A stretch of DNA of 64,000 nt from Desulfurobacteriaceae bacterium (GTDB taxonomy: Bacteria > Aquificota > Aquificia > Desulfurobacteriales > Desulfurobacteriaceae), in NCBI GenBank assembly GCA_027068415.1, contig JAMOTD010000014.1:62001-126000 (forward strand). Direction: 5' to 3'. The first letter of the stretch is position 1. Every line of letters begins with the position of its first letter. This document shows positions 18,670 to 31,822 of this stretch, piece by piece. A model generated the notes under the pieces. That model searched no databases. It had not been told where the DNA came from and was given only the letters and a program-made list of their open reading frames with translations. The translations under genes were made by a program, and so were the position numbers.

Positions 18670-20721
18670 ATGGGAGTCAGGAGGCTTCTCAGAGCAACTC
18701 TCGCACTGGCAGCAGTGGGAGGAGTAACCTTTGCAGGTGCCGCAGTAGCCGGCAATAACGAAGTAGATGTTTACCAGAAAGCCGGCGGCGACGCTGCAGT
18801 TAAAGGTTTTGACGGAAGCTCTGCTTACCATCAGGAAGGAACTGGAAACAAATTATACGTAAAGAAGCAGGAAGCCGGAAGTGATAATGAAGACACCGCT
18901 TACATTAACTTTGACCAGTACGGTGATGGCAACGTAATCAAGGTTAATGACGCACAAACTGCCGGTGATGATGCTTTAATCAAGGTCAAGCAAGGTCAAG
19001 ATTCCTCTACAACTGCAAACAGCAACCAAGTCGTTCTCGGAACACAGAGTGCCGGAACAAACGCTACTCTTCAAGTTGAGCAGTACTCAAATAGTAACAC
19101 CATTCACATTTCTGAGTCTTCGGCAAATAGTGGTGAGAACAAAATTACGATTCTTCAAACAGGTGTAGAAAATAACGAGGTATCTATTGATACTCAGTCA
19201 GCAGATCAAAACCAAACCACTACAATTACTCAGGATGGTTCAGGAACAGGCCACAGCCACTTAACTATCACTACTCAAAAGGCTTCAGGTGGAGATATCA
19301 CAAACACTGTAAATCAGCATGCTAACGGTGCAGGAGACAACACGGCTTCCATTGGTACTCAGAGTGCAGGCGGTTCTATTAGCAATGAGATAACTCAGAC
19401 CAACGATGGAGACAAGAAAGATAAGGTTAACCTCAGCACTCAAATTGCCGGCTCTGACATAATGAACACTATATCTCAGACTGGAACCGGTGATTCTGTA
19501 GAGGTTCTTTCACAAAATGCTGGTGATTACATTCAGAACGTCTTTACTCAAAGTGGAAACGACAACTCAATTTCACTGCAAACTCAGGAAACTGACGATG
19601 GTTATATGGAAAATGAAGTAGAACAATCCGGCGACTCCAACTCCCTTACCATTAAAGACCAAGATGCAAAGACTAACATCGGTAACTTCGTCAAGCAGCT
19701 TACCAACAACAACACGATTTCTATTGATACTCAAACTGCAAGTGATGAATTCATTGAGAACGAAATTACCCAGAAAGGTGGCGATGGCAACACCATAACT
19801 ATTACCAAGCAGGAAGCCGGTACTTACGTTGACAACAACATCACTCAGGACGGTGCTAACAACTCAATCACTGTTGAGACTCAGGAAGCTTCAAGCGGTT
19901 ATGTAAAGAACGAAATTACTCAAACTGGTGACGACAACACTGTAGTTCTCAACCAGACTGCTGCTGACCACATCAATGACAAGATTGAGATTACAGGAAG
20001 CTCAAACCTCGTCAGGGTTAAGGGAACAGCTTCAGGAGCTAATGACGATGTAACAATCAAAATTAACGGAAGCTCAACTAAGATTGCTGGCGTTAAGTAC
20101 GACAGCGGCGACCTTACGTTTGAGGAGTCCGGTTACGCTACTCAGGACGGTAATGACAACGACTTAGAGATTACTGCAGGCTCTAACAACACCGTCGGTC
20201 TCTATCAGAAGGCTACCGGAGATAACGACTTTACAGCTACAATGGGAGATGGTAACACAAACCTTGTTTACCAAGAGACATCAAACGGAGCTAACAGCGT
20301 TTCAATCGACGAAGGAAACGACAACTTCGTAAGCATCTACCAGAGCGGTGATGCTAACAATACAATTACACTTGACATTACAGACTCTAACAAAGTTCTT
20401 GGCTCCTACCTTGACAGCAACAACCACGTTGTTGCTTACGAGGAGTCTGACAACAAGCCTGCTGTACAGCTCGGCGGTGAGAACGTCTTAGATATCGCTG
20501 TTAACAGCGGTGATACTAACCTCTTTGCAATCCACCAGGAAGCCGATACTCAGAATTACTTCCACGCTGTAGTTGACGGAAGCAACAACAATATCATGGT
20601 CTACCAGACTGCTGCTAACAAAGCCTATGCTGACATTCAGGTTGCTTCCAGCGATAACACAATCAAGATTGTTCAAGACAGCGTAAGCGGAAATGCAACG
20701 GTTGAGGCATATGTCAAGTAA
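18670..20721 (+). CDS. Giant curlin-type amyloid subunit (CsgA-like)
   Basis: This 683-residue protein has a signal peptide (residues 1-27, cleavage after AVA). The whole mature part is built of curlin-like strand-turn-strand repeats. The most regular block is residues 239-436, with a ~25-residue period and consensus N-x-I-x-Q-x-G-x-x-N-x-I-x-I-x-x-Q-x-A. This matches the Q-x4-N-x5-Q spacing of CsgA repeats. E. coli CsgA has five repeats in about 150 residues; here the mature length would hold about 25. Neighbouring csgE, csgF and csgG homologues support the identity. The ATG at 18670 has AAGGAGGAG upstream and gives a clean signal peptide; an upstream in-frame start at 18532 does not. Base composition is unusual: no GAGCTC in 2 kb. 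Confidence 0.9.
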   Translation: MGVRRLLRATLALAAVGGVTFAGAAVAGNNEVDVYQKAGGDAAVKGFDGSSAYHQEGTGNKLYVKKQEAGSDNEDTAYINFDQYGDGNVIKVNDAQTAGDDALIKVKQGQDSSTTANSNQVVLGTQSAGTNATLQVEQYSNSNTIHISESSANSGENKITILQTGVENNEVSIDTQSADQNQTTTITQDGSGTGHSHLTITTQKASGGDITNTVNQHANGAGDNTASIGTQSAGGSISNEITQTNDGDKKDKVNLSTQIAGSDIMNTISQTGTGDSVEVLSQNAGDYIQNVFTQSGNDNSISLQTQETDDGYMENEVEQSGDSNSLTIKDQDAKTNIGNFVKQLTNNNTISIDTQTASDEFIENEITQKGGDGNTITITKQEAGTYVDNNITQDGANNSITVETQEASSGYVKNEITQTGDDNTVVLNQTAADHINDKIEITGSSNLVRVKGTASGANDDVTIKINGSSTKIAGVKYDSGDLTFEESGYATQDGNDNDLEITAGSNNTVGLYQKATGDNDFTATMGDGNTNLVYQETSNGANSVSIDEGNDNFVSIYQSGDANNTITLDITDSNKVLGSYLDSNNHVVAYEESDNKPAVQLGGENVLDIAVNSGDTNLFAIHQEADTQNYFHAVVDGSNNNIMVYQTAANKAYADIQVASSDNTIKIVQDSVSGNATVEAYVK

Positions 20722-20732
20722 GCTTAAGCGTA

Positions 20733-20757
20733 GGAGGGGAGTCCCCCCTCCGTTTTT
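20733..20757 (+). terminator. Terminator between the curlin gene and csgE
   Basis: GGAGGGG and CCCCTCC form a perfect 7-bp stem around AGTCC, followed by GTTTTT, starting 12 bases after the curlin stop. Partial read-through would give much more subunit mRNA than export-machinery mRNA. Confidence 0.7.
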
Positions 20758-20767
20758 ATACTCGTGG

Positions 20768-21223
20768 GTGGGGGGATTTAAGCGTCCTCCCGGCTGGGGT
20801 AGCCCTCTTCGGAGGGTTATCCCTTCTTTTTTGTCTCTCCTAATTTTCTTCTTTCTTTTCTCCCTTTCACTCCATCAATCAGGGGCAGCTGAAGTTTACG
20901 ATATTGATTATTACATAGTTGATAAAACAAAAACACCTTGGGGGCATAAGTTTTATAGAACCTATCAAGAAATTTGGGAGGCTCCCAAAGGGATAAAAGG
21001 GTACTTCATAATAATTGGTGAAAGAAAGGTTTCTTTCCGGCAAAGTTGGGTTTACGTAAAAGTCGGGGATAACATCTTCAATTACGAAGTTTATACAAGC
21101 CTTCTAAAGCCGACAATGGGCGAAATGGACATGCAGTCAAAAGCTCTTGAAGCTGTAAAAAAAACCCTTTCCTTCTTACTTAGGAATTATTTTCGTCTTA
21201 AATCTCTTGAAAAGGAGCTCTAA
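20768..21223 (+). CDS. csgE: Curli assembly protein CsgE-like
   Basis: The C-terminal ~115 residues match CsgE, the periplasmic adaptor that caps the CsgG pore and delivers curlin. Visible features are the N-terminal strand (YYIVDKTKTPWGHKFYR, like the GHDFYR region of E. coli CsgE), a GERKVSF-type strand, SWVYVKVGDNIF, and a C-terminal helix after MQSKALEAVKKTL. A strong signal-peptide core (residues about 25-45 from this start, ending SGA) precedes it. The start is uncertain. ATGs at 20693 or 20711 would put the terminator inside the gene. A TTG at 20831 has a GGAGGG Shine-Dalgarno but leaves no basic n-region. The GTG at 20768 is chosen because it keeps the n-region RR. The C-terminus is firm. 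Confidence 0.8.
   Translation: MGGFKRPPGWGSPLRRVIPSFLSLLIFFFLFSLSLHQSGAAEVYDIDYYIVDKTKTPWGHKFYRTYQEIWEAPKGIKGYFIIIGERKVSFRQSWVYVKVGDNIFNYEVYTSLLKPTMGEMDMQSKALEAVKKTLSFLLRNYFRLKSLEKEL
20801..20818 (+). promoter_or_regulatory. UUCG-tetraloop hairpin over the csgE Shine-Dalgarno
   Basis: AGCCCTC and GAGGGTT pair (one G-U) around a TTCG loop closed by C-G, an exceptionally stable RNA hairpin. It covers the only GGAGG in the csgE leader. It lies ~45 bases after the intergenic terminator. It could limit csgE translation or stabilise the downstream RNA end. Confidence 0.45.
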
Positions 21224-21238
21224 AGTTGGGGGTATAAA

Positions 21239-21649
21239 ATGAAAAAGCTTTTATGTGCTCTCGTTCTTGTTTCTCTACCAGTTGCTGCTTTAGCTTCAAC
21301 AATTACTTACAAACCTATTATCCCCTCTTTCGGCGGAGACCCTGATAACTGGGGAGGTCTTCTGGCCGAAGCCGATAAACAAAATATTTACCACGCTCCT
21401 CGGAAGAAAGTTTCTGTTAAAAACCCGATAGACCGTTTTAAAGAGCAACTCCAGTACATGATTTTGAGCAGGCTTGCTTCTAAACTGGTTAACGCTGCCT
21501 TCGGAGACGAGGAACTCCCGGCCGGAACTTATCAAATTGAGAACTTTCAAGTTACCGTTCAGCCTCAAGGAGGAGAAATCCACGTTAACATCGTAGATAC
21601 AAGTACCGGTTCAACAACTGAGGTAATCGTTCCCATGTACAACCAGTAG
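21239..21649 (+). CDS. csgF: Curli assembly protein CsgF-like
   Basis: This 136-residue secreted protein has a signal peptide ending ALA. The mature N-terminus, TITYKPIIPSFGGDPDNWGG, corresponds to the FRNPNFGGNP-type segment of E. coli CsgF, which inserts into the CsgG pore. A linker helix and a C-terminal beta domain (TYQIENFQVTVQ, then IHVNIVDTSTGSTTEVIVP) follow, as in CsgF. Family length agrees. It starts 15 bases after csgE with a GGGGGT Shine-Dalgarno, so it should be co-transcribed. CsgF links the pore to fibre nucleation at the cell surface. Confidence 0.88.
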   Translation: MKKLLCALVLVSLPVAALASTITYKPIIPSFGGDPDNWGGLLAEADKQNIYHAPRKKVSVKNPIDRFKEQLQYMILSRLASKLVNAAFGDEELPAGTYQIENFQVTVQPQGGEIHVNIVDTSTGSTTEVIVPMYNQ

Positions 21650-21691
21650 CTCTTCAGATAAACCTTAATAAGACCGGGAGGACGGCTTCAA

Positions 21692-22693
21692 ATGAAAAGG
21701 AGACTGCTACCCATGCTTTTTTCGGGTTTTCTCTCGTTTGTAGGCTGTGCCTACACCCCACCCACAAAACCCTTAAGCGTTGAACCTCCTGTTGTTAACC
21801 AAGAACCTCCGTCCCACAGCCTTCTTCAATTTCTTCCTTCTCCGAAAGAGGTTATTCCCGTCGCTATTTACAACTTCAGAGACCAGACCGGGCAGTACAA
21901 GGTTTACAACAACATAAGTACATTTTCTACCGCGGTGACACAGGGCGCAACTTCCATTTTGGTTAAAGCTGCTTACGACAGTGGTTGGTTCCTACCGGTA
22001 GAAAGAGAGAATCTTGCGGACCTTTTAACCGAAAGGAGAATTATCAGGAACGCTATTGAGCAGGAGCTAAAGGCAAAGGGTTTAAAACCAAAAAAGAACA
22101 TTTTGCCCCCCTTAAAGTTTGCTCCCGTAATTTTGACCGGTGGTATTATCGGGTACGATACCGATACAGTTACCGGAGGCTTCGGCGCCAAGTATTTCGG
22201 AGTCGGCGGCTCTACCCAGCTCAGGAGAGACAGGGTTACTGTTTACCTGAGGGCAATATCTGCAAAGACGGGAGAAGTTCTTTTGACGGTTACTGCAACA
22301 AAAACCATTCTATCACGGGCTTTAGACGTTCATGCATTTAAATACGTCAAGTGGAAAAGGCTCTTTCAACTTGAGACCGGAGTTACTACCAATGAACCCG
22401 GTCTTTATGCCCTTCAGGGAGCAATAGAGAAAGCTGTGTATGCTCTCATAATTGAGGGAATTGCAAAAGGTTATTGGCAACCTAAGAACCCTGCAGATGT
22501 TTATTCCCCCGTTGTTCAGAAGTACTTTAAGTGGAAACTTCAGGAGCTTAAAGAGCAAGAAGATAACCTTAGGAGGATTCTCGGAAGGGACTTTACCGAA
22601 AGGGAGATTAACGACTACCTGAAGAGGTTGAGGAAGGAGAGGAATCTAATTCTCTGGTACGAGAAAACCAAAAGAAGAGGTAGAAATGGATAG
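21692..22693 (+). CDS. csgG: Curli secretion channel CsgG-like lipoprotein
   Basis: This 333-residue outer-membrane lipoprotein has a lipobox ending FVGC (Cys19). The CsgG core is recognisable: VIPVAIYNFRDQTGQ, the YKVYNNISTFSTAVTQGATSIL segment lining the constriction, GWFLPVERENLADLLTER, an FAPVILTGGIIGYDTDT strand and the transmembrane hairpin region around VYLRAISAKTGEVL. CsgG forms a nonameric pore that exports curlin. It is about 55 residues longer than E. coli CsgG, the excess being a charged helical C-terminus. Its last 8 bases overlap the ankyrin gene. Confidence 0.92.
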   Translation: MKRRLLPMLFSGFLSFVGCAYTPPTKPLSVEPPVVNQEPPSHSLLQFLPSPKEVIPVAIYNFRDQTGQYKVYNNISTFSTAVTQGATSILVKAAYDSGWFLPVERENLADLLTERRIIRNAIEQELKAKGLKPKKNILPPLKFAPVILTGGIIGYDTDTVTGGFGAKYFGVGGSTQLRRDRVTVYLRAISAKTGEVLLTVTATKTILSRALDVHAFKYVKWKRLFQLETGVTTNEPGLYALQGAIEKAVYALIIEGIAKGYWQPKNPADVYSPVVQKYFKWKLQELKEQEDNLRRILGRDFTEREINDYLKRLRKERNLILWYEKTKRRGRNG

Positions 22694-25250
22694 CGTAAGG
22701 GAAAGGAGCTCCCTCCTACTTTCCGGAGTTTTAAAGAACGACCCCGAGCTCTTTTCGGAAGGGGTCAGAAGGGGAGAAAACCCTTTAAGTCTTAACGATA
22801 AAGGCCAGTCTCTGCTTCACGTTGCTGCAAAGAGCAACAGCCATCAGGTTGTTGACTTTCTCGTTAAGTTAGGGCTTTCGCCCGACGAGAAAGATAAAAA
22901 GGGGAGAACCCCTCTCCACTACGCTGCAGCCTCGGACTCCCTTGAGGTTGCTCGAAAGCTTCTCTCTTTAGGGGCTTCTCCGTTGGAGGTTGACGAGGAA
23001 GGTAGAACACCGCTCCACTATGCCGCCAGTGCCGGAAGTGCTAAGGTTTTAAAGTTACTCCTTGAGAAGGTAAAGACTCCCGACATTCCCGACTCAAAGG
23101 GAAGAACGCCACTCTTTTATGCCTCTGCAAAGTCAAAGCTTGAGGCAGTAGGGCTTCTTCTAACAGCCGGAGCAGATCCCAATTACAGGGACTCTTCCGG
23201 CTATACTCCCCTTCTCTTTGCTGCCGAGAAGGATGCTCAGTCTTCCGTTCTCTTCCTCATAGAGAAGGGAGCCGACCCCCACGCCCGGGACGGCAAGGGA
23301 CAGACCGCCCTTCACAAGGCGGTTTTGAACAAGAACCTCTTTTTAATTAAGGAGCTCTTCTTCTTAAAAGAGGTACCCGATAATGACAACCTCTACCCCC
23401 TCCACTACGCCGTTAATACTGGAGAGGCCGTCGTACTGGAGGTTTTGCTTGAGCTCGGCCACGGGCCCGACTGTAAGGATAAGTTAGGTAAGACCCCCCT
23501 TCACTACGCCGTCTCAAGGAACCTTACGGAGCTTGTTGACCTTCTTCTTTCTCACGGAGCTCTCCCTTGGGCCGAGGACGGTTTCGCCAGAACGCCTGCC
23601 CACTATGCAATTGCCAACGACAATACGGAAATTCTGGAGCTCCTTTTAAAGGGAGAAGGTCTGGAGAAGTTAAAAGGAAAAGGGCTTGTTGTTGAAGCGG
23701 TTACCTCAAAGGCCGTTAACTCCTTAAAGCTTCTTGCCGACAAAGGCTTTGACCTTAACGAGAGGGATGCTGAAGGAAAAGCTCCCCTTCACCACGCGGC
23801 TGCTCTAAACCTGCCCGAGGTTGCAAAGCTGCTTTTAGAGATGGGAGCAGAGCTTGAGGTTGAAGACACCTTTGGAGGAACTCCCCTCCACTACGCCGCC
23901 GCCGGAGGAAGCTTAGAAGTTATGGAACTCCTCCTCGGACGGGAAGCAGACCCAAACAGAGCTAACAAAAAGGGGAGAACCCCACTTCACTACGCCGTTT
24001 TGAAAGAACAGCCCGAAAGCGTAAGAAGGTTAATCCTCGCCGGGGCGGAGCTTGAGAAGGCTGATGAGGTAGGAAGGACTCCACTCCACTACGCCTGTGA
24101 GGTTGAAAGCCTTGAGATAGTTGATATTCTCCTTAAGGCCGGAGCAAAGGCAGGGAGTTCAGACCCTTCCGGAGTTGCTCCCCTTCACATTGCCGCTTTT
24201 ACCGATAACCTTGAGATAGCCCGCAGGCTCGTTGAGGCCGGCGCAGGCGTTGGAGTTAAAGACAAAGAGGGAAAGACTCCCCTCCACGTCTGTGCCCTCA
24301 GGAACAGTTTAAAGGTTGCCTCTTTACTCATTGAAGAGGGAGCCGACGTTAACGCTAAAGACTTAAGGGGGGAAACTCCGCTTCACTACGCAGTAAAGTC
24401 CTCAAGCGGGGAGCTCCTTGAGCTCTTGATAGAGAAAGGAGCAGACCCGAAGCTCAAGGACGATAGAGGAAGAACTCCCCTTCACCTTGCCGTTATCTCT
24501 GACAACTTGAAAGCCCTTTCTCTTATAGCCGGCTCTGAGCCTCAACTCCTTAACGAGCCTGACAGTGAGGGTAAAACTCCCGTTGACTACGGAGTTGAGC
24601 TGGGGACTCCGGAGCTTCTGGCTTCCCTCTTGGAGCTTGCAGGGGAGAGGCTGAATCCCGAGAGCCCCATAGTTAAGGGAATATTTAAAGCAGACAGAGT
24701 GGAGCTCTTAAAATCTCTCGTTGAGAAGGGGCTTCTATCACTTAAGGAGAGCGGAAAGGAGGGAAAGAGCCTTCTCCACTATGCCGCCTCTTTCGGAGCC
24801 CCAAAGTGTGCCGCATACCTGATTGAGAAGAGGCTTTGGGTAAACCTGAAAGATAACTTTGGAAGGCTTCCCGTTCACCTTGTTTCAAAGAGCGACAGCG
24901 TTGAGACGTTGAAAGTTCTTGTTGAGGCCGGAGCTTACCTTGACTTTAAGGATAACTTCGGTAAAACCCCCCTCCACTTCTGTGCAATGCTTGGAGCTCC
25001 CAAAGTTGCCCGATTTCTCCTTGAGGCGGGAGTTGAGCCCTCTCCCAAAGACATGGTGAAGAAAACTCCCCTCCACTACGCCGCTTCGGGCGATTGTGCA
25101 GAGGTTGTAAAGGTTCTCCTTGAGGCCGGCGCTTCCCTTGACGAAAAGGACTCACAGGGAATCACCCCTTTAGTTGAGGCGGCTCAGAGCGGTAAGTTCA
25201 GAGCTCTGAAGGAGATGGTAGATTTTGTTCTTTCGGGTGGAAAAGTTTAA
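22686..25250 (+). CDS. Giant ankyrin-repeat protein coupled to csgG
   Basis: This 854-residue protein is almost entirely ankyrin repeats: I count about 25 units of ~33 residues with the G-x-TPLHYA-A start and LL-x-x-GA core. A few are degenerate (near 330-365 and 610-670). There is no signal peptide or membrane segment, so it is probably cytoplasmic. Its ATG lies inside the end of csgG (ATGGATAG), strong evidence for translational coupling with the curli operon. Ankyrin solenoids bind proteins; the partner is unknown. GAGCTC is frequent here, unlike in the csg genes, so the coding style differs from its operon partners. Confidence 0.88.
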   Translation: MDSVRERSSLLLSGVLKNDPELFSEGVRRGENPLSLNDKGQSLLHVAAKSNSHQVVDFLVKLGLSPDEKDKKGRTPLHYAAASDSLEVARKLLSLGASPLEVDEEGRTPLHYAASAGSAKVLKLLLEKVKTPDIPDSKGRTPLFYASAKSKLEAVGLLLTAGADPNYRDSSGYTPLLFAAEKDAQSSVLFLIEKGADPHARDGKGQTALHKAVLNKNLFLIKELFFLKEVPDNDNLYPLHYAVNTGEAVVLEVLLELGHGPDCKDKLGKTPLHYAVSRNLTELVDLLLSHGALPWAEDGFARTPAHYAIANDNTEILELLLKGEGLEKLKGKGLVVEAVTSKAVNSLKLLADKGFDLNERDAEGKAPLHHAAALNLPEVAKLLLEMGAELEVEDTFGGTPLHYAAAGGSLEVMELLLGREADPNRANKKGRTPLHYAVLKEQPESVRRLILAGAELEKADEVGRTPLHYACEVESLEIVDILLKAGAKAGSSDPSGVAPLHIAAFTDNLEIARRLVEAGAGVGVKDKEGKTPLHVCALRNSLKVASLLIEEGADVNAKDLRGETPLHYAVKSSSGELLELLIEKGADPKLKDDRGRTPLHLAVISDNLKALSLIAGSEPQLLNEPDSEGKTPVDYGVELGTPELLASLLELAGERLNPESPIVKGIFKADRVELLKSLVEKGLLSLKESGKEGKSLLHYAASFGAPKCAAYLIEKRLWVNLKDNFGRLPVHLVSKSDSVETLKVLVEAGAYLDFKDNFGKTPLHFCAMLGAPKVARFLLEAGVEPSPKDMVKKTPLHYAASGDCAEVVKVLLEAGASLDEKDSQGITPLVEAAQSGKFRALKEMVDFVLSGGKV

Positions 25251-25456: not shown

Positions 25457-25975
25457 ATGGAGGCATTAGAGAAAACACTTACAAGGCTCAGAAACGTTGC
25501 CGAAACCCTCTTCTTTGTAAACGGAAGTCCGAAGGAGAGGGTAATAAGAGACGTAAACGAGTTTTTAAAACACCTTTCAAGGGAGACCTCAAAGTGTATT
25601 AGGGAAGAGGGAAGGGTTCTCCTTGTCTCTTTTAGAGTTCCTTACCTCCCCGAAGATAAGAAAGAGGAGTTTGAGGAAGCACTTGCAGGAAGCTTCAGGT
25701 TTTACGACCTTATAGCAAACCTCTCCTGGGGAGTTTACTCGGTTGCCGTTGTTTCTCTTAAGTCTCGGGGAGAGGGGATAAATGTTTTTAAGGTGGTTTC
25801 AAGAATTAAAGGAGTTATGAAAAAAAGCGGATTAAATGGTGATGCCTTTAACTACTCTTTTAAAGTTATTCCTTACGACGGCGTAAACCTTGAAGCTCTT
25901 CTGAAGATGAGCCTCAGGGAGCTCCAGAGCAGTTTTGAGCTTCCCCTTGCGCTCTCCCCGAGAGCTACTGCTTAA
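25457..25975 (+). CDS. Degenerate GGDEF-like protein
   Basis: This 172-residue soluble protein has AGGAGG upstream of the ATG. The pattern from about residue 30 follows a GGDEF fold: a leading helix, VLLVSFRV strand, FRFYDLIANL helix where diguanylate cyclases have R-x-x-D-x-x-A-R-L, then WGVYSVAVVSL where GGDEF-F should be, and a final FKVIPYDGVNLEALLKMSLREL like the end of the domain. The catalytic GG[DE]EF residues are absent, so it cannot be an active cyclase and could at most bind a nucleotide or protein. Fold assignment is by eye. Its end overlaps the convergent TPR gene by 11 bases. Confidence 0.5.
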   Translation: MEALEKTLTRLRNVAETLFFVNGSPKERVIRDVNEFLKHLSRETSKCIREEGRVLLVSFRVPYLPEDKKEEFEEALAGSFRFYDLIANLSWGVYSVAVVSLKSRGEGINVFKVVSRIKGVMKKSGLNGDAFNYSFKVIPYDGVNLEALLKMSLRELQSSFELPLALSPRATA

Positions 25976-27011
25976 AGAGTTTCCTGTATAGGAGCTGTGC
26001 CGCTTCGGAGTTGGGAGTTTTGAGCCTTTGTGATAGCAGGTATTCAGCCCAGAGCTCCCCCTCCCTGCACAGCTCCATTAGCTGCTTGTTCGGGAGCTCC
26101 TTTTTAGGCAGTTTCTCTCTTTCTTTAAATGAGTAAACTCTGTAAAGGTGAAGGCTCTCTTCGGCTCTCCTCTCCTCCCCTGCCTTCTTAAACCACCGAG
26201 AGGCCTCCCTGTAGAGCTCTGCCTTCTCCTTTATCTGAGCGACTCTCTCTCTCAAAAACTCCTCGGGACTTTTTACCTCTATTAAGAGGCACTCCCCCTT
26301 TCCTACAGAAGAGGCGGCCTCAAATAGGAGCTCCCCCATTACCTGGGCGGCCTTTCTGTTTCCCCTCTCGTACTCGGTTAAAAGGATTGAACGGGCAAGC
26401 TTTTGGTTCCCCAGTTTAAAAAGACAGGCGGCCGAGCCCAACCTCGCCTCTCTTATTCCGTACCTTATTGCAAGCTGGTAGTAGAAGAGAGCTCCCCTAA
26501 AGAGTTCGTTTTCCTTTAGGTAATCTCCTATATAAAGGTAAAGAACCGGCTCCCTTTTCCCGAGCTCTTCAAGTCTTTTGAGCTCCTTTAGAGTTAGGTA
26601 ATCGGTCAATTTAAAAAGCTCCCTGTTGGGGTAGAGGTTTTCCGTAGCTTTAAAGAACCACTCCCTCGCTTCTTTCCTTTTCCCCTCTTTTAAGAAACTT
26701 TTACCTATCAGGTAGGCCGCCTCTCCCTTCTTTTTTCCTTTAAGGCTTTTAAAGGCCATAAGAAGGTATCTCCTTGCCTCTTTGTTCCTTCCCCCTTTTA
26801 AGAGCAGTTTCCCTTCACAGAGCTGAGCTTGGGGGAAACCCTTGTCTGCCAGCTTTTTTACCTCTACTGCTTGGGAAGGCTTTACTCTGCACTCCTTTAG
26901 GTTGCGGTAGGTTATCGGAGCCGTTGAGCAGGAAAAGAGGAAAATCAGAAGAAGATTACCAGCTAACTTTAACGTCAAGGTATCCGCCCGCCTTCGGTTT
27001 TCTCTCCTCAA
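25965..27011 (-). CDS. TPR/Sel1-type lipoprotein
   Basis: This 348-residue protein has a hydrophobic N-terminal segment and lipobox LFSC (Cys about 28 from this start). Helical TPR/Sel1-like repeats follow, for example DKGFPQAQLCEGKLLLKGG, KGEAAYLIGKSFLKEGKRKEARE, and GALFYYQLAIRYGIREARLGSA. It should be anchored in the outer membrane facing the periplasm, like AlgK- or PelB-type assembly scaffolds. The start is uncertain: TTG at 27011 gives a long basic n-region and overlaps the upstream gene by 56 bases; a TTG at 26978 is an alternative. It is the last gene of a four-gene minus-strand run. Confidence 0.65.
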   Translation of the reverse strand: MRRENRRRADTLTLKLAGNLLLIFLFSCSTAPITYRNLKECRVKPSQAVEVKKLADKGFPQAQLCEGKLLLKGGRNKEARRYLLMAFKSLKGKKKGEAAYLIGKSFLKEGKRKEAREWFFKATENLYPNRELFKLTDYLTLKELKRLEELGKREPVLYLYIGDYLKENELFRGALFYYQLAIRYGIREARLGSAACLFKLGNQKLARSILLTEYERGNRKAAQVMGELLFEAASSVGKGECLLIEVKSPEEFLRERVAQIKEKAELYREASRWFKKAGEERRAEESLHLYRVYSFKEREKLPKKELPNKQLMELCREGELWAEYLLSQRLKTPNSEAAQLLYRKLFKQ

Positions 27012-28386
27012 AGGCGTTTCCCGGGAAGAAAAGCCCGCCGCCCAAGCTCAGCTTTTTTCTGGGTGAGGTTAAGCTATACTTGAGGAATAGGGAGACGCCG
27101 GCAAATCTTCCCCTGCTCTTTAGCTTCCTTTTGCCTATTAAAATCGTTTTGCCCTTACCGTTCACGCCGTAGAGGGAGCTTGAGAGAGAAAACTCTTTTA
27201 AGCTCAGCTTAAACTCCGCTCCCGTAAGGTTCATCGGGTCAAGGGCGAAGAATGGGGTTTTACCGTCGGTATAGAGCTCTCCTTTTGACTGGGGAGGCAT
27301 ACTGAGGGAGCTGTCAGTAAAGAAGTTGAGGTTTAAGTCTTTAACCTTTCCCCCAAGTCTCAACAGGTAGGAGCTCCCCCTGACGGAGGCAAAGGCCGAG
27401 AAGCTCCCGCTCCAGCCTTTAAGGTTAAACCTGCTTCCGGTTGAAAAGGGGAGCTCTCTTTCTTTTGTGAACCTGTCGTAGAGGTAGGTTAGCTCAACTC
27501 CCGAAGAGTTTGAAAAGTGGTAAGTTAGCCCGCCCCTTAAGGAGAGGAGCCCCTTCAGGTCTATCTGGTTTTCGTAGTTTCTGAAGGCCTGATAAGAGGC
27601 CGAAAGTGAGAGCTTTTTGTCAACAAAGTCGCCTAAGGCCTCAGCCGAGAGGGGGCTCCATGATTCAAGGGGATTCTCCCTGCGGAGGATACCGAGCTTT
27701 AAAAGGAGCGTGTCTTTGAGCCAGAACTCCTTTGAGAGCTCCCTTATTGCTACGCCGAGCTCTGTTTTGTCTCCCGACCTAATTAGCCTCAATCCTGCTC
27801 CCCTGTAGTAGAGGGCGGTAAAAGAGTAACTCTTTGAAAGCTCCCTGTTTACCGAAGTTCCGAAAGAAAACTCAACTCCTTTCTCCTTTTTACCTTCCTT
27901 CCTGCTTTCGGGGAACTTAACCTCCCTGCCTCCTTCCTCTCCTACTTCCCTTTTGGTGTTCTCCTTTAATAGAGATTCAATCAGCTGGGAAATTCTCTCT
28001 TGCTCTTTAGGATTTTCCCTAACCCTTCTTTTGGGAGAAGGTCGGGGCTTTTCCGTTTGCTTAGGAAGAACCCACCTTTTGGGCAGGTAGTAGCACTTCC
28101 TCAGGAAAGCTCCCTTAAACCCCTTCTTTCTCAAACGGTTAAGAGCCCTTCTTGCTTCCCCTATCTCTTTCCAGAACCCGATTCTGAGGGTATAGTACCG
28201 GCCGATTTTCTCAAGCCTTACCCCTTTAAACTCCCGGTTAAGCTCTTTGAAGAGCTCCCTCTCTCTTTCAGTTATCTCCTTACTTGACAGGAGCTGAATA
28301 CAGTAATAGCTCTTATCTGTCTGGGCCCCGACGCCCTTGAGGGGGATTAAAATCAGGGCCCACGTCAGAGCTAAGCGTTTAAGCAT
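26956..28386 (-). CDS. SPOR-domain protein with C-terminal outer-membrane barrel
   Basis: This 476-residue protein starts with a signal peptide (ending VGA). A SPOR-like domain is at about 25-110 (YYCIQLLSSKE, then GRYYTLRIGFWKEIGEARRALNRLRKKG), followed by a proline/charged linker at 115-170. About 300 residues of alternating beta-strand pattern end in an aromatic residue (VKVSW), the usual barrel terminus. SPOR domains bind denuded septal peptidoglycan. A SPOR-barrel fusion plus a TPR lipoprotein resembles polymer-export pairs such as AlgK/AlgE in layout only. It overlaps the regulator gene by 16 bases. Confidence 0.6.
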   Translation of the reverse strand: MLKRLALTWALILIPLKGVGAQTDKSYYCIQLLSSKEITERERELFKELNREFKGVRLEKIGRYYTLRIGFWKEIGEARRALNRLRKKGFKGAFLRKCYYLPKRWVLPKQTEKPRPSPKRRVRENPKEQERISQLIESLLKENTKREVGEEGGREVKFPESRKEGKKEKGVEFSFGTSVNRELSKSYSFTALYYRGAGLRLIRSGDKTELGVAIRELSKEFWLKDTLLLKLGILRRENPLESWSPLSAEALGDFVDKKLSLSASYQAFRNYENQIDLKGLLSLRGGLTYHFSNSSGVELTYLYDRFTKERELPFSTGSRFNLKGWSGSFSAFASVRGSSYLLRLGGKVKDLNLNFFTDSSLSMPPQSKGELYTDGKTPFFALDPMNLTGAEFKLSLKEFSLSSSLYGVNGKGKTILIGKRKLKSRGRFAGVSLFLKYSLTSPRKKLSLGGGLFFPGNAFEERKPKAGGYLDVKVSW

Positions 28387-28997
28387 TCCACCAGCTCTCC
28401 CTGATTGATGAGAGCCTGAATTAACTTCTGGAACTTGAGGAACTTAATAATCAGCTGAGTCCTGTTTTCGCACTTAACCTTTTTGAGGAGGTGGTTGATG
28501 TAGTACTTGATGCTCTGCTCGGTCAGTCCCAGCTCTTTTGCAATTTCCTTGTTGGTGTAGCCCTTTAGGAGGAAGTGGATAATCTTCAGCTCCTTCATTG
28601 AGAAATTCCTTACCGCAAGGTCGTCTTTTAGGATGTAGTGGAAGATGGAGCGTTTAATCCAGACTTCTCCTGCCTTAACCGCGTAAAAGAGCTTCTTTAG
28701 TAGCTTTGGGTCCATGTCCTTGTAGATTACTCCTTTTATGGGGAAGAGCTTTAAAAAGACGGCTATGTCGTCCTCTGAGAGTTCGTAGTCAAGGAGTACT
28801 AAAATTTTCTCCTCTTCAATCAACTTCTGTATTTCGGGAAGGTTGTTAAGGAGAAACTCGTCATCAACAATCACTATGTCGGCGTTCTGCCAGTAAGAGA
28901 GGTACTTAATTTCCTCTCCTAAGCTGTCTATCTTTTCCTTCAGGAGCTCCGAGATAAAGCGGTTTGTCAGGGCACAAGAGACTTTCATCTCCTCCAT
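28371..28997 (-). CDS. LuxR-type response-regulator-like activator (CsgD-like)
   Basis: This 208-residue protein has a receiver-like N-terminal half (ADIVIVDDEFLLNN, GVIYKDMDPKLLKKLFYAVKAGEVWI) and a C-terminal LuxR/FixJ helix-turn-helix at about 130-195 (FSMKELKIIHFLLKGYTNKEIAKELGLTEQSIKYYINHLLKKV). Domain order and length match CsgD, the curli/cellulose master activator of enterobacteria. The receiver looks incomplete as a canonical phospho-acceptor. The gene sits 3.2 kb beyond the curli operon, convergent to it. GGAGGAG precedes the ATG. The CsgD-like role is inferred from context. Confidence 0.75.
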   Translation of the reverse strand: MEEMKVSCALTNRFISELLKEKIDSLGEEIKYLSYWQNADIVIVDDEFLLNNLPEIQKLIEEEKILVLLDYELSEDDIAVFLKLFPIKGVIYKDMDPKLLKKLFYAVKAGEVWIKRSIFHYILKDDLAVRNFSMKELKIIHFLLKGYTNKEIAKELGLTEQSIKYYINHLLKKVKCENRTQLIIKFLKFQKLIQALINQGELVECLNA

Positions 28998-29034: not shown

Positions 29035-29787
29035 TTACCAGATAAAGCCAACTCCCAGAGAGAAGACTCTTGAGGTAGCCTTCAAATCGTATCCGTCAAC
29101 GTCGTCGGCTTTACTCAGGCCGTAAGCATAAGAGCCGAAAAGGTAGAGTTGGGAGTTGAGGAAGTACTTCACTCCTCCCTCAATCTCCTTATTTTCCCTC
29201 CTGTCTGAGAAGGGAATGGCTCCCCTCAAGAAAAGGTTCAGGTAGTAGGTAGGGCTACAGCTTATCTTTACGTGGAAGCTCGGGATGACCGTTGAGAGGT
29301 CGTCCTCGGTTTTGGTCGTATTTCCACTGTAGTTGAAGCTCGTTTTTACTTTGTAGTCAATAAAGAAAAGGTTGATTCCCAGTTCAAGGTTCAAGAAGTC
29401 GTAGTTAAGCCGGTCAAGAGGTTGGTAGTAGAGAGTGAGATTAATGTTATTCCCGTCAAGCTTTGTTCCTACTTTCGTTCCCTTTGCAACCGTGTAGTCA
29501 GCAATTGTTAAATCCTCTTTAAGGCGCTTTGAGCCTGTTGTGTGGAGGTGGGTGTACTCAGCTCTTACGTCGGGAATTACGGGGAAGTTCTCAACCGAGT
29601 AGGAGATGCCGAAGCCCTTTTCCGTGTCTGTGGGTACCGTGAAGCTGCTGTCTTTTTCAAGCCGTATTGTTGTTGACGGGCGGTTGACGAAGAGAGTGAG
29701 CTCTTCAAGGAGAAAAGCTTTTGAGCTTTGTGTTGTCGGCAGGAAAAGGGAGAGAGCAGAGAGAAGAGCCAAGCAAGTTTTACGCAT
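29035..29787 (-). CDS. Outer-membrane beta-barrel protein
   Basis: This 250-residue protein has a signal peptide (to about residue 24, ending SSKA) and an eight-or-more-stranded barrel pattern. It ends SLGVGFIW, with the terminal aromatic used for barrel insertion. A TTGAAA-N18-TATAAT promoter and AGAGGG ribosome-binding site lie upstream, making it the first gene of the omp-regulator-SPOR-TPR run. It looks like the OmpW/TIGR04219-type small barrels; the ligand is unknown. Confidence 0.7.
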   Translation of the reverse strand: MRKTCLALLSALSLFLPTTQSSKAFLLEELTLFVNRPSTTIRLEKDSSFTVPTDTEKGFGISYSVENFPVIPDVRAEYTHLHTTGSKRLKEDLTIADYTVAKGTKVGTKLDGNNINLTLYYQPLDRLNYDFLNLELGINLFFIDYKVKTSFNYSGNTTKTEDDLSTVIPSFHVKISCSPTYYLNLFLRGAIPFSDRRENKEIEGGVKYFLNSQLYLFGSYAYGLSKADDVDGYDLKATSRVFSLGVGFIW

Positions 29788-31501: not shown

Positions 31502-31822
31502 CTAAATAATTTCAAAAATTTTTTCTTCTTCAGAGATAAGCCGAGACATCATTTCACTAATTAAAATTTCATTATTGTATTCAAGAGCAAAGTCTATAGG
31601 TCTAGCACCAAACTTATCTCTAGTAGTAACATAAGCGTCTTTTTTTATTAGCAGTAGTGCCAATTCTGTATGTTTATTCTTGGTAGCCCAATGCAAAGGA
31701 GTCCAGCCTTCCTTATCTTTAGTATTAACATTAATCCCTTTATCTAATAATAATTTAATTTTCTCTATGTCACCTTCTCTAACAGATTGATATAAAGCTA
31801 AAATTTCCTTCTTCTCTGCCAT
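31502..31822 (-). CDS. Small ankyrin-repeat protein
   Basis: This 106-residue protein has about three ankyrin repeats: VREGDIEKIKLLLDKGINVNTKD, KEGWTPLHWATKNKHTELALLLIKKDA and KFGARPIDFALEYNN. There is no signal peptide, so it is cytoplasmic. Codon use is much more AT-rich than the 854-residue ankyrin protein at 22.7 kb, so it is probably of different origin rather than a recent copy. A short GGAG Shine-Dalgarno and a TATAAT (minus, 31861-31856) are upstream. Confidence 0.75.
   Translation of the reverse strand: MAEKKEILALYQSVREGDIEKIKLLLDKGINVNTKDKEGWTPLHWATKNKHTELALLLIKKDAYVTTRDKFGARPIDFALEYNNEILISEMMSRLISEEEKIFEII

Follow-up and report, generated by a model that had tools for sequence, protein, structure and literature searches.

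What is a long ankyrin-repeat protein, predicted to stay in the cytosol, doing directly behind the gene for the curli secretion channel in a member of the Desulfurobacteriaceae? Curli are a model functional amyloid, and to our knowledge the helpers dedicated to them are periplasmic, sit at the outer membrane, or, in the case of CsgD, bind DNA as a regulator. The ankyrin protein, here called ANK, lies in the stretch of 64,000 nucleotides that was analyzed as a whole (the window; position 1 is its first letter), at the end of the following run of features.

18670..20721, + strand: giant curlin-like CsgA, 683 amino acids from MGVRRLLRA, mature part with a pI of 4.1, weak CsgA match
20733..20823, + strand: two terminator-like hairpins directly 3' of the csgA stop (pattern match)
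20693..21223, + strand: csgE (limits of the open reading frame; the true start is probably further inside), Pfam PF10627, E 8.8e-10
21239..21649, + strand: csgF, Pfam PF10614, E 3.4e-32
21692..22693, + strand: csgG, curli secretion channel (lipoprotein), Pfam PF03783, E 4.7e-58
22686..25250, + strand: ankyrin protein ANK, 854 amino acids, one ankyrin solenoid, without a signal peptide

The CsgG, CsgF, and CsgE homologues are matched by Pfam above the curated cut-offs. CsgA has a leader and a Q/N content of 13 to 20%, but it has no Pfam curlin-repeat match, and its score against the CsgA model is far below the cut-off. The hairpins lie at 20733-20751 and 20796-20823, the second one inside the listed csgE reading frame; csgE therefore probably starts further downstream than listed. 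The hairpins probably act as attenuation ahead of csgE, which suggests that fewer transcripts cover csgEFG-ANK than csgA.

ANK itself is all ankyrin. Its Pfam Ank_2 match has an E value of 7e-180, a repeat profile finds 24 units, and the AlphaFold2 model (mean pLDDT, 85.8) has 26 helix pairs running end to end without interruption, so the 25 repeats of the original prediction are a fair count. As evidenced by Pfam, the repeat profile, the model, and a fold search, these are tandem 33-residue ankyrin repeats stacked into a solenoid, and the solved structures closest in fold are those of ankyrin-1 and ankyrin-B, each a 24-repeat solenoid (8cs9 and 4rlv). Neither Pfam nor the model reveals another domain or a membrane anchor, and neither ANK nor any of its four full-length orthologues has a hydrophobic leader or signal peptide, in agreement with what had been read from the single sequence. 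Assignment as a Dot/Icm ankyrin effector or as the anti-phage protein MzaA was rejected, as all NCBIfam equivalog scores were well under the curated cut-offs. Elsewhere in the window, at 31502-31822 on the minus strand, a reading frame of about 106 amino acids with two ankyrin repeats shows no evident relation to the curli cluster.

The start of ANK was said to lie inside the end of csgG, with an overlap of 8 bases, and the coordinates are exact (csgG, 21692-22693; ANK from 22686). The translational coupling deduced from this overlap is plausible at the source locus, but it is not general. A Shine-Dalgarno-like GAGGT just 5' of the ANK ATG means that independent initiation is also possible, and the csgG-to-ANK spacing of -8 nt becomes +161 nt in the sister species, in an AT-rich spacer with no terminator match, and +14 nt in all three species of a second genus. 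Coupling as a conserved feature is ruled out by this range; judged from these sequences, the overlap is a local detail and the conserved property is adjacency.

How far does the adjacency extend? Of 136 genomes examined from the phylum, five encode a CsgF-family protein, two from one genus (G000 and G134) and three from a second genus (G116, G117, and G118); elsewhere in the phylum, CsgG-like genes are not accompanied by the CsgE or CsgF of curli. ANK lies directly 3' of csgG on the same strand in 5/5 csgF-positive genomes, which are few and related, coming from two genera of one family, and are not independent. The orthologues are colinear, 852 to 856 amino acids long, and 41 to 95% identical, with irregular features at matching places (a 30-residue repeat near residue 230 and a KGKGL linker near residue 332), and a dN/dS of 0.05 to 0.07 indicates purifying selection. 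The csg genes of the first genus are oriented toward the genes for TPR, SPOR, LuxR, and outer membrane proteins described below, while in the second genus all genes run in one direction. Since flanks and gene order differ between the genera and the adjacency is kept, the csgG-ANK pairing has outlived rearrangement. The check proposed along with the original prediction, adjacency in related genomes, thus came out in its favor, and a dedicated link between ANK and the curli system is supported by these comparisons.

Long ANK orthologues are absent from curli-free relatives, with a sole exception. This is a decayed curli locus in genome G115 (L065 and L254), where csgA, csgE, csgF, and csgG are missing and ANK is truncated by the end of an insertion sequence; the same element splits the outer membrane protein gene.

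Outside the phylum, no such partner was found. No ankyrin reading frame lies within 10 kb of csgG at 80 loci, nearly all from Bacteroidota, or within about 6 kb at 40 loci from Nitrospirota and Pseudomonadota; the ankyrin probe recovers 6/6 known copies of ANK. There is no ankyrin in the E. coli csg operons, the text of a 2012 survey of curli systems (PMC3521004) mentions neither ankyrin nor Aquificae, and a literature search for ankyrin with curli found nothing relevant. The statement that known curli systems have no such partner therefore holds for the 120 csgG loci elsewhere and fits the silence of that survey text on ankyrin.

The genes that follow ANK bear on what it might do in the cytosol.

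25457..25975, + strand: orf172, a degenerate GGDEF domain without the GGDEF motif (orthologue profile)
25965..27011, - strand: basic TPR-like protein, probably exported, pI 9.8 (Pfam, charge)
26956..28386, - strand: SPOR-domain protein with an outer-membrane-like C-terminal part (PF05036)
28371..28997, - strand: LuxR/CsgD/VpsT-like regulator with GE[VIL]WI[KR]R (LuxR-type HTH, alignments)
29035..29787, - strand: small predicted outer membrane protein of the conserved cluster (gene neighborhood, identities)

Although orf172 has no Pfam match, a profile of its five orthologues matches true GGDEF cyclases over the core (E 1e-8 to 4e-10), and the GGDEF signature is replaced (by SWGVY at the source locus). 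Homology with loss of the signature marks it as a degenerate GGDEF domain and, by sequence, not an active cyclase. Structural comparisons gave a best E value of 8.5e-3 in a fold search with a low-confidence model (mean pLDDT, 57) and a weak PDB profile match (E 0.19). The gene is linked to curli in 5/5 loci and is kept in the G115 remnant.

The regulator has a LuxR-type HTH and is 26% identical to E. coli CsgD over the alignment, which places it with the CsgD-type LuxR regulators, and it also matches VpsT (E 5.8e-6), a protein that binds c-di-GMP (PMC3359988). Its GE[VIL]WI[KR]R motif, conserved in 6/6 loci, aligns at the GECYFTQ stretch of CsgD and is possibly a c-di-GMP site. Curli loci and the G115 remnant are the only places with close, full-length relatives of luxR, the SPOR protein, and orf172; distant paralogues of the luxR and orf172 families are also found elsewhere in the bacterial family. 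The regulator, the degenerate GGDEF protein, and ANK are three cytosolic-type parts that all track the presence of curli, and together they point to regulation. The basic TPR protein and the SPOR/outer-membrane-like protein are likewise constant members of the cluster (25965-28386, - strand), and the TPR protein may be the one that handles the acidic curlin in the periplasm.

From the sequence comparisons, the best explanation is that ANK works in the cytosol as an accessory protein devoted to the curli (type VIII) system of this bacterial family. More specifically, and tentatively (we give it a probability of roughly 0.4), we propose that ANK scaffolds the regulation of curli in the cytosol. 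It would be produced along with CsgG, and several sites in its long groove would bind extended segments of cytosolic partners, of which the likeliest are the CsgD/VpsT-like regulator and the degenerate GGDEF protein of the cluster. Expression of the curli genes would thereby be tuned to the c-di-GMP state or to secretion capacity. There is precedent for such binding in 24-repeat ankyrin solenoids, where extended peptides occupy several sites that are independent of one another (PMC4358367). In favor of the scaffold are the position of ANK 3' of csgG in all five genomes, purifying selection, the restriction of close relatives of luxR, the SPOR protein, and orf172 to curli loci, and the ankyrin-B-like fold. 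Against it, ANK adjoins csgG and not luxR, which in the source genus belongs to another transcription unit on the other strand, and between genera its groove is no more conserved than its outer face.

That last comparison, with consensus-biased positions removed, gives 0.23 for the inner groove and 0.24 for the outer face between genera. Within a genus the values are 0.67 and 0.52 (p 0.002, or p 0.05 without consensus-biased positions). A conserved ligand groove is thus unsupported between genera and weak within a genus, and ANK lacks, between genera, the strongly conserved inner groove of the eukaryotic ankyrin membrane-binding domain. As far as sequence can tell, groove conservation does not decide any of the proposed mechanisms.

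A natural experiment among the curlin genes bears on the main rival to the scaffold. Between G117 and G118, identity is 95% for ANK and 89% for csgG but drops to 34% for CsgA and 50% for CsgF, whereas between G118 and G000, which belong to different genera, CsgA and CsgF reach 58% and 71%. At the DNA level, the identity of G117 and G118 is 92% up to the csgA leader, 33 to 66% from mature csgA to the start of csgG, and 76 to 95% through csgG and ANK, with the left breakpoint at about codon 27 of csgA, where the leader ends. The divergence of csgA-csgE-csgF departs from that of the species, whereas that of ANK, luxR, TPR, SPOR, and orf172 follows it. Mature csgA-csgE-csgF (18670-22000 in the window; L062 and L064) behaves as a cassette that has passed from species to species, even across genera; one breakpoint lies where the csgA leader stops and the other within the N-terminal part of csgG. 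ANK appears to have served different curlins unchanged, and its coevolution with mature CsgA is ruled out by the swap.

In this main rival, which we consider possible but unlikely, ANK is a cytosolic holdase that binds unfolded pre-CsgA, most plausibly by its basic leader, and keeps it soluble for Sec export. That ANK is cytosolic and made with CsgG speaks for this rival, as does the binding of extended peptides by ankyrin solenoids (PMC4358367). In E. coli this job is done by DnaK, which binds the CsgA signal peptide, and it is the signal peptide, not the amyloid repeats, that decides the aggregation of CsgA in the cytoplasm (PMC6123696). All five species share a well-conserved CsgA leader, MG[IV]R..L, the very part retained in the recombinant G118, which makes the leader a possible target of ANK. 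However, mature CsgA was swapped while ANK did not change, and both are acidic, with net charges of -43 to -63 for mature CsgA and -15 to -24 for ANK; for these two reasons, binding of ANK to mature curlin is not favored. The TPR protein, at +25 to +29, is by calculated charge the better electrostatic match. Furthermore, the hairpins after csgA suggest that ANK is far scarcer than curlin, and the other curli systems examined work without an ankyrin protein at the locus. The suggestion that ANK may hold curlin precursors is therefore weakened as regards the mature sequence, and the leader is the part of it that survives.

Less probable than a holdase is an organizer of the secretion side at the inner membrane, where ANK would dock, for example, on Sec or on cytosolic loops of envelope proteins and cluster the sites of curli secretion. 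Its place beside csgG in 5/5 genomes and the resemblance of its fold to the membrane-clustering ankyrins would suit this role, yet CsgG, CsgE, CsgF, and the SPOR and TPR proteins all appear to be exported and so present no known cytosolic docking face, and ANK has no membrane anchor. More doubtful again is the notion that ANK is a passenger, a general ankyrin protein that travels with the curli genes by an accident of one family, given that, although the five genomes represent only two related genera and ankyrin genes are common in the family, the pairing survived rearranged flanks and the replacement of csgA-csgE-csgF, orthologues are missing from curli-negative relatives except for the truncated remnant in G115, and ANK is under purifying selection.

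Regulatory scaffolding of cytosolic partners thus remains our preferred reading. A more elaborate form, the most speculative of the ideas put forward here, would have ANK bind the curlin leader, report the precursor load, and release or capture the CsgD/VpsT-like regulator, as a secretion-coupled feedback switch for a bacterial amyloid. The evidence points to a so far undescribed protein that helps or regulates amyloid secretion from inside the cell. A cytosolic ankyrin partner dedicated to curli in a thermophile lineage would, if true, reveal how an aggregation-prone secreted protein is controlled before export, or how its genes are coupled to its secretion. With the curlin cassette naturally swapped and the ankyrin gene beside it constant, the competing mechanisms can be tested directly.

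Several known systems resemble ANK in part. Like the 24-repeat membrane-binding domain of ankyrin-B and ankyrin-R, ANK is one long solenoid of similar length, but it is bacterial, has no spectrin-binding or death domains, and shows no special conservation of the groove between genera. Most genomes of the family have another, exported ankyrin protein of about 230 amino acids (L058 and related loci), which shares ankyrin repeats and genomes with ANK and differs in having a signal peptide and no linkage to curli. DnaK acting on CsgA in E. coli is also a cytosolic helper of curli production (PMC6123696), but it is an Hsp70 ATPase and general chaperone that is not linked to curli by gene position. 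The closest counterpart of the whole locus is the E. coli curli system (csgBAC-csgDEFG), with which it shares a curlin-like gene followed by CsgE, CsgF, and CsgG homologues in order, and a CsgD-like regulator nearby. To this shared plan, the ANK loci add curlins of about 590 to 680 amino acids, compared with about 150 in E. coli, SPOR, basic TPR, and degenerate GGDEF proteins, and a cytosolic ankyrin protein 3' of csgG.
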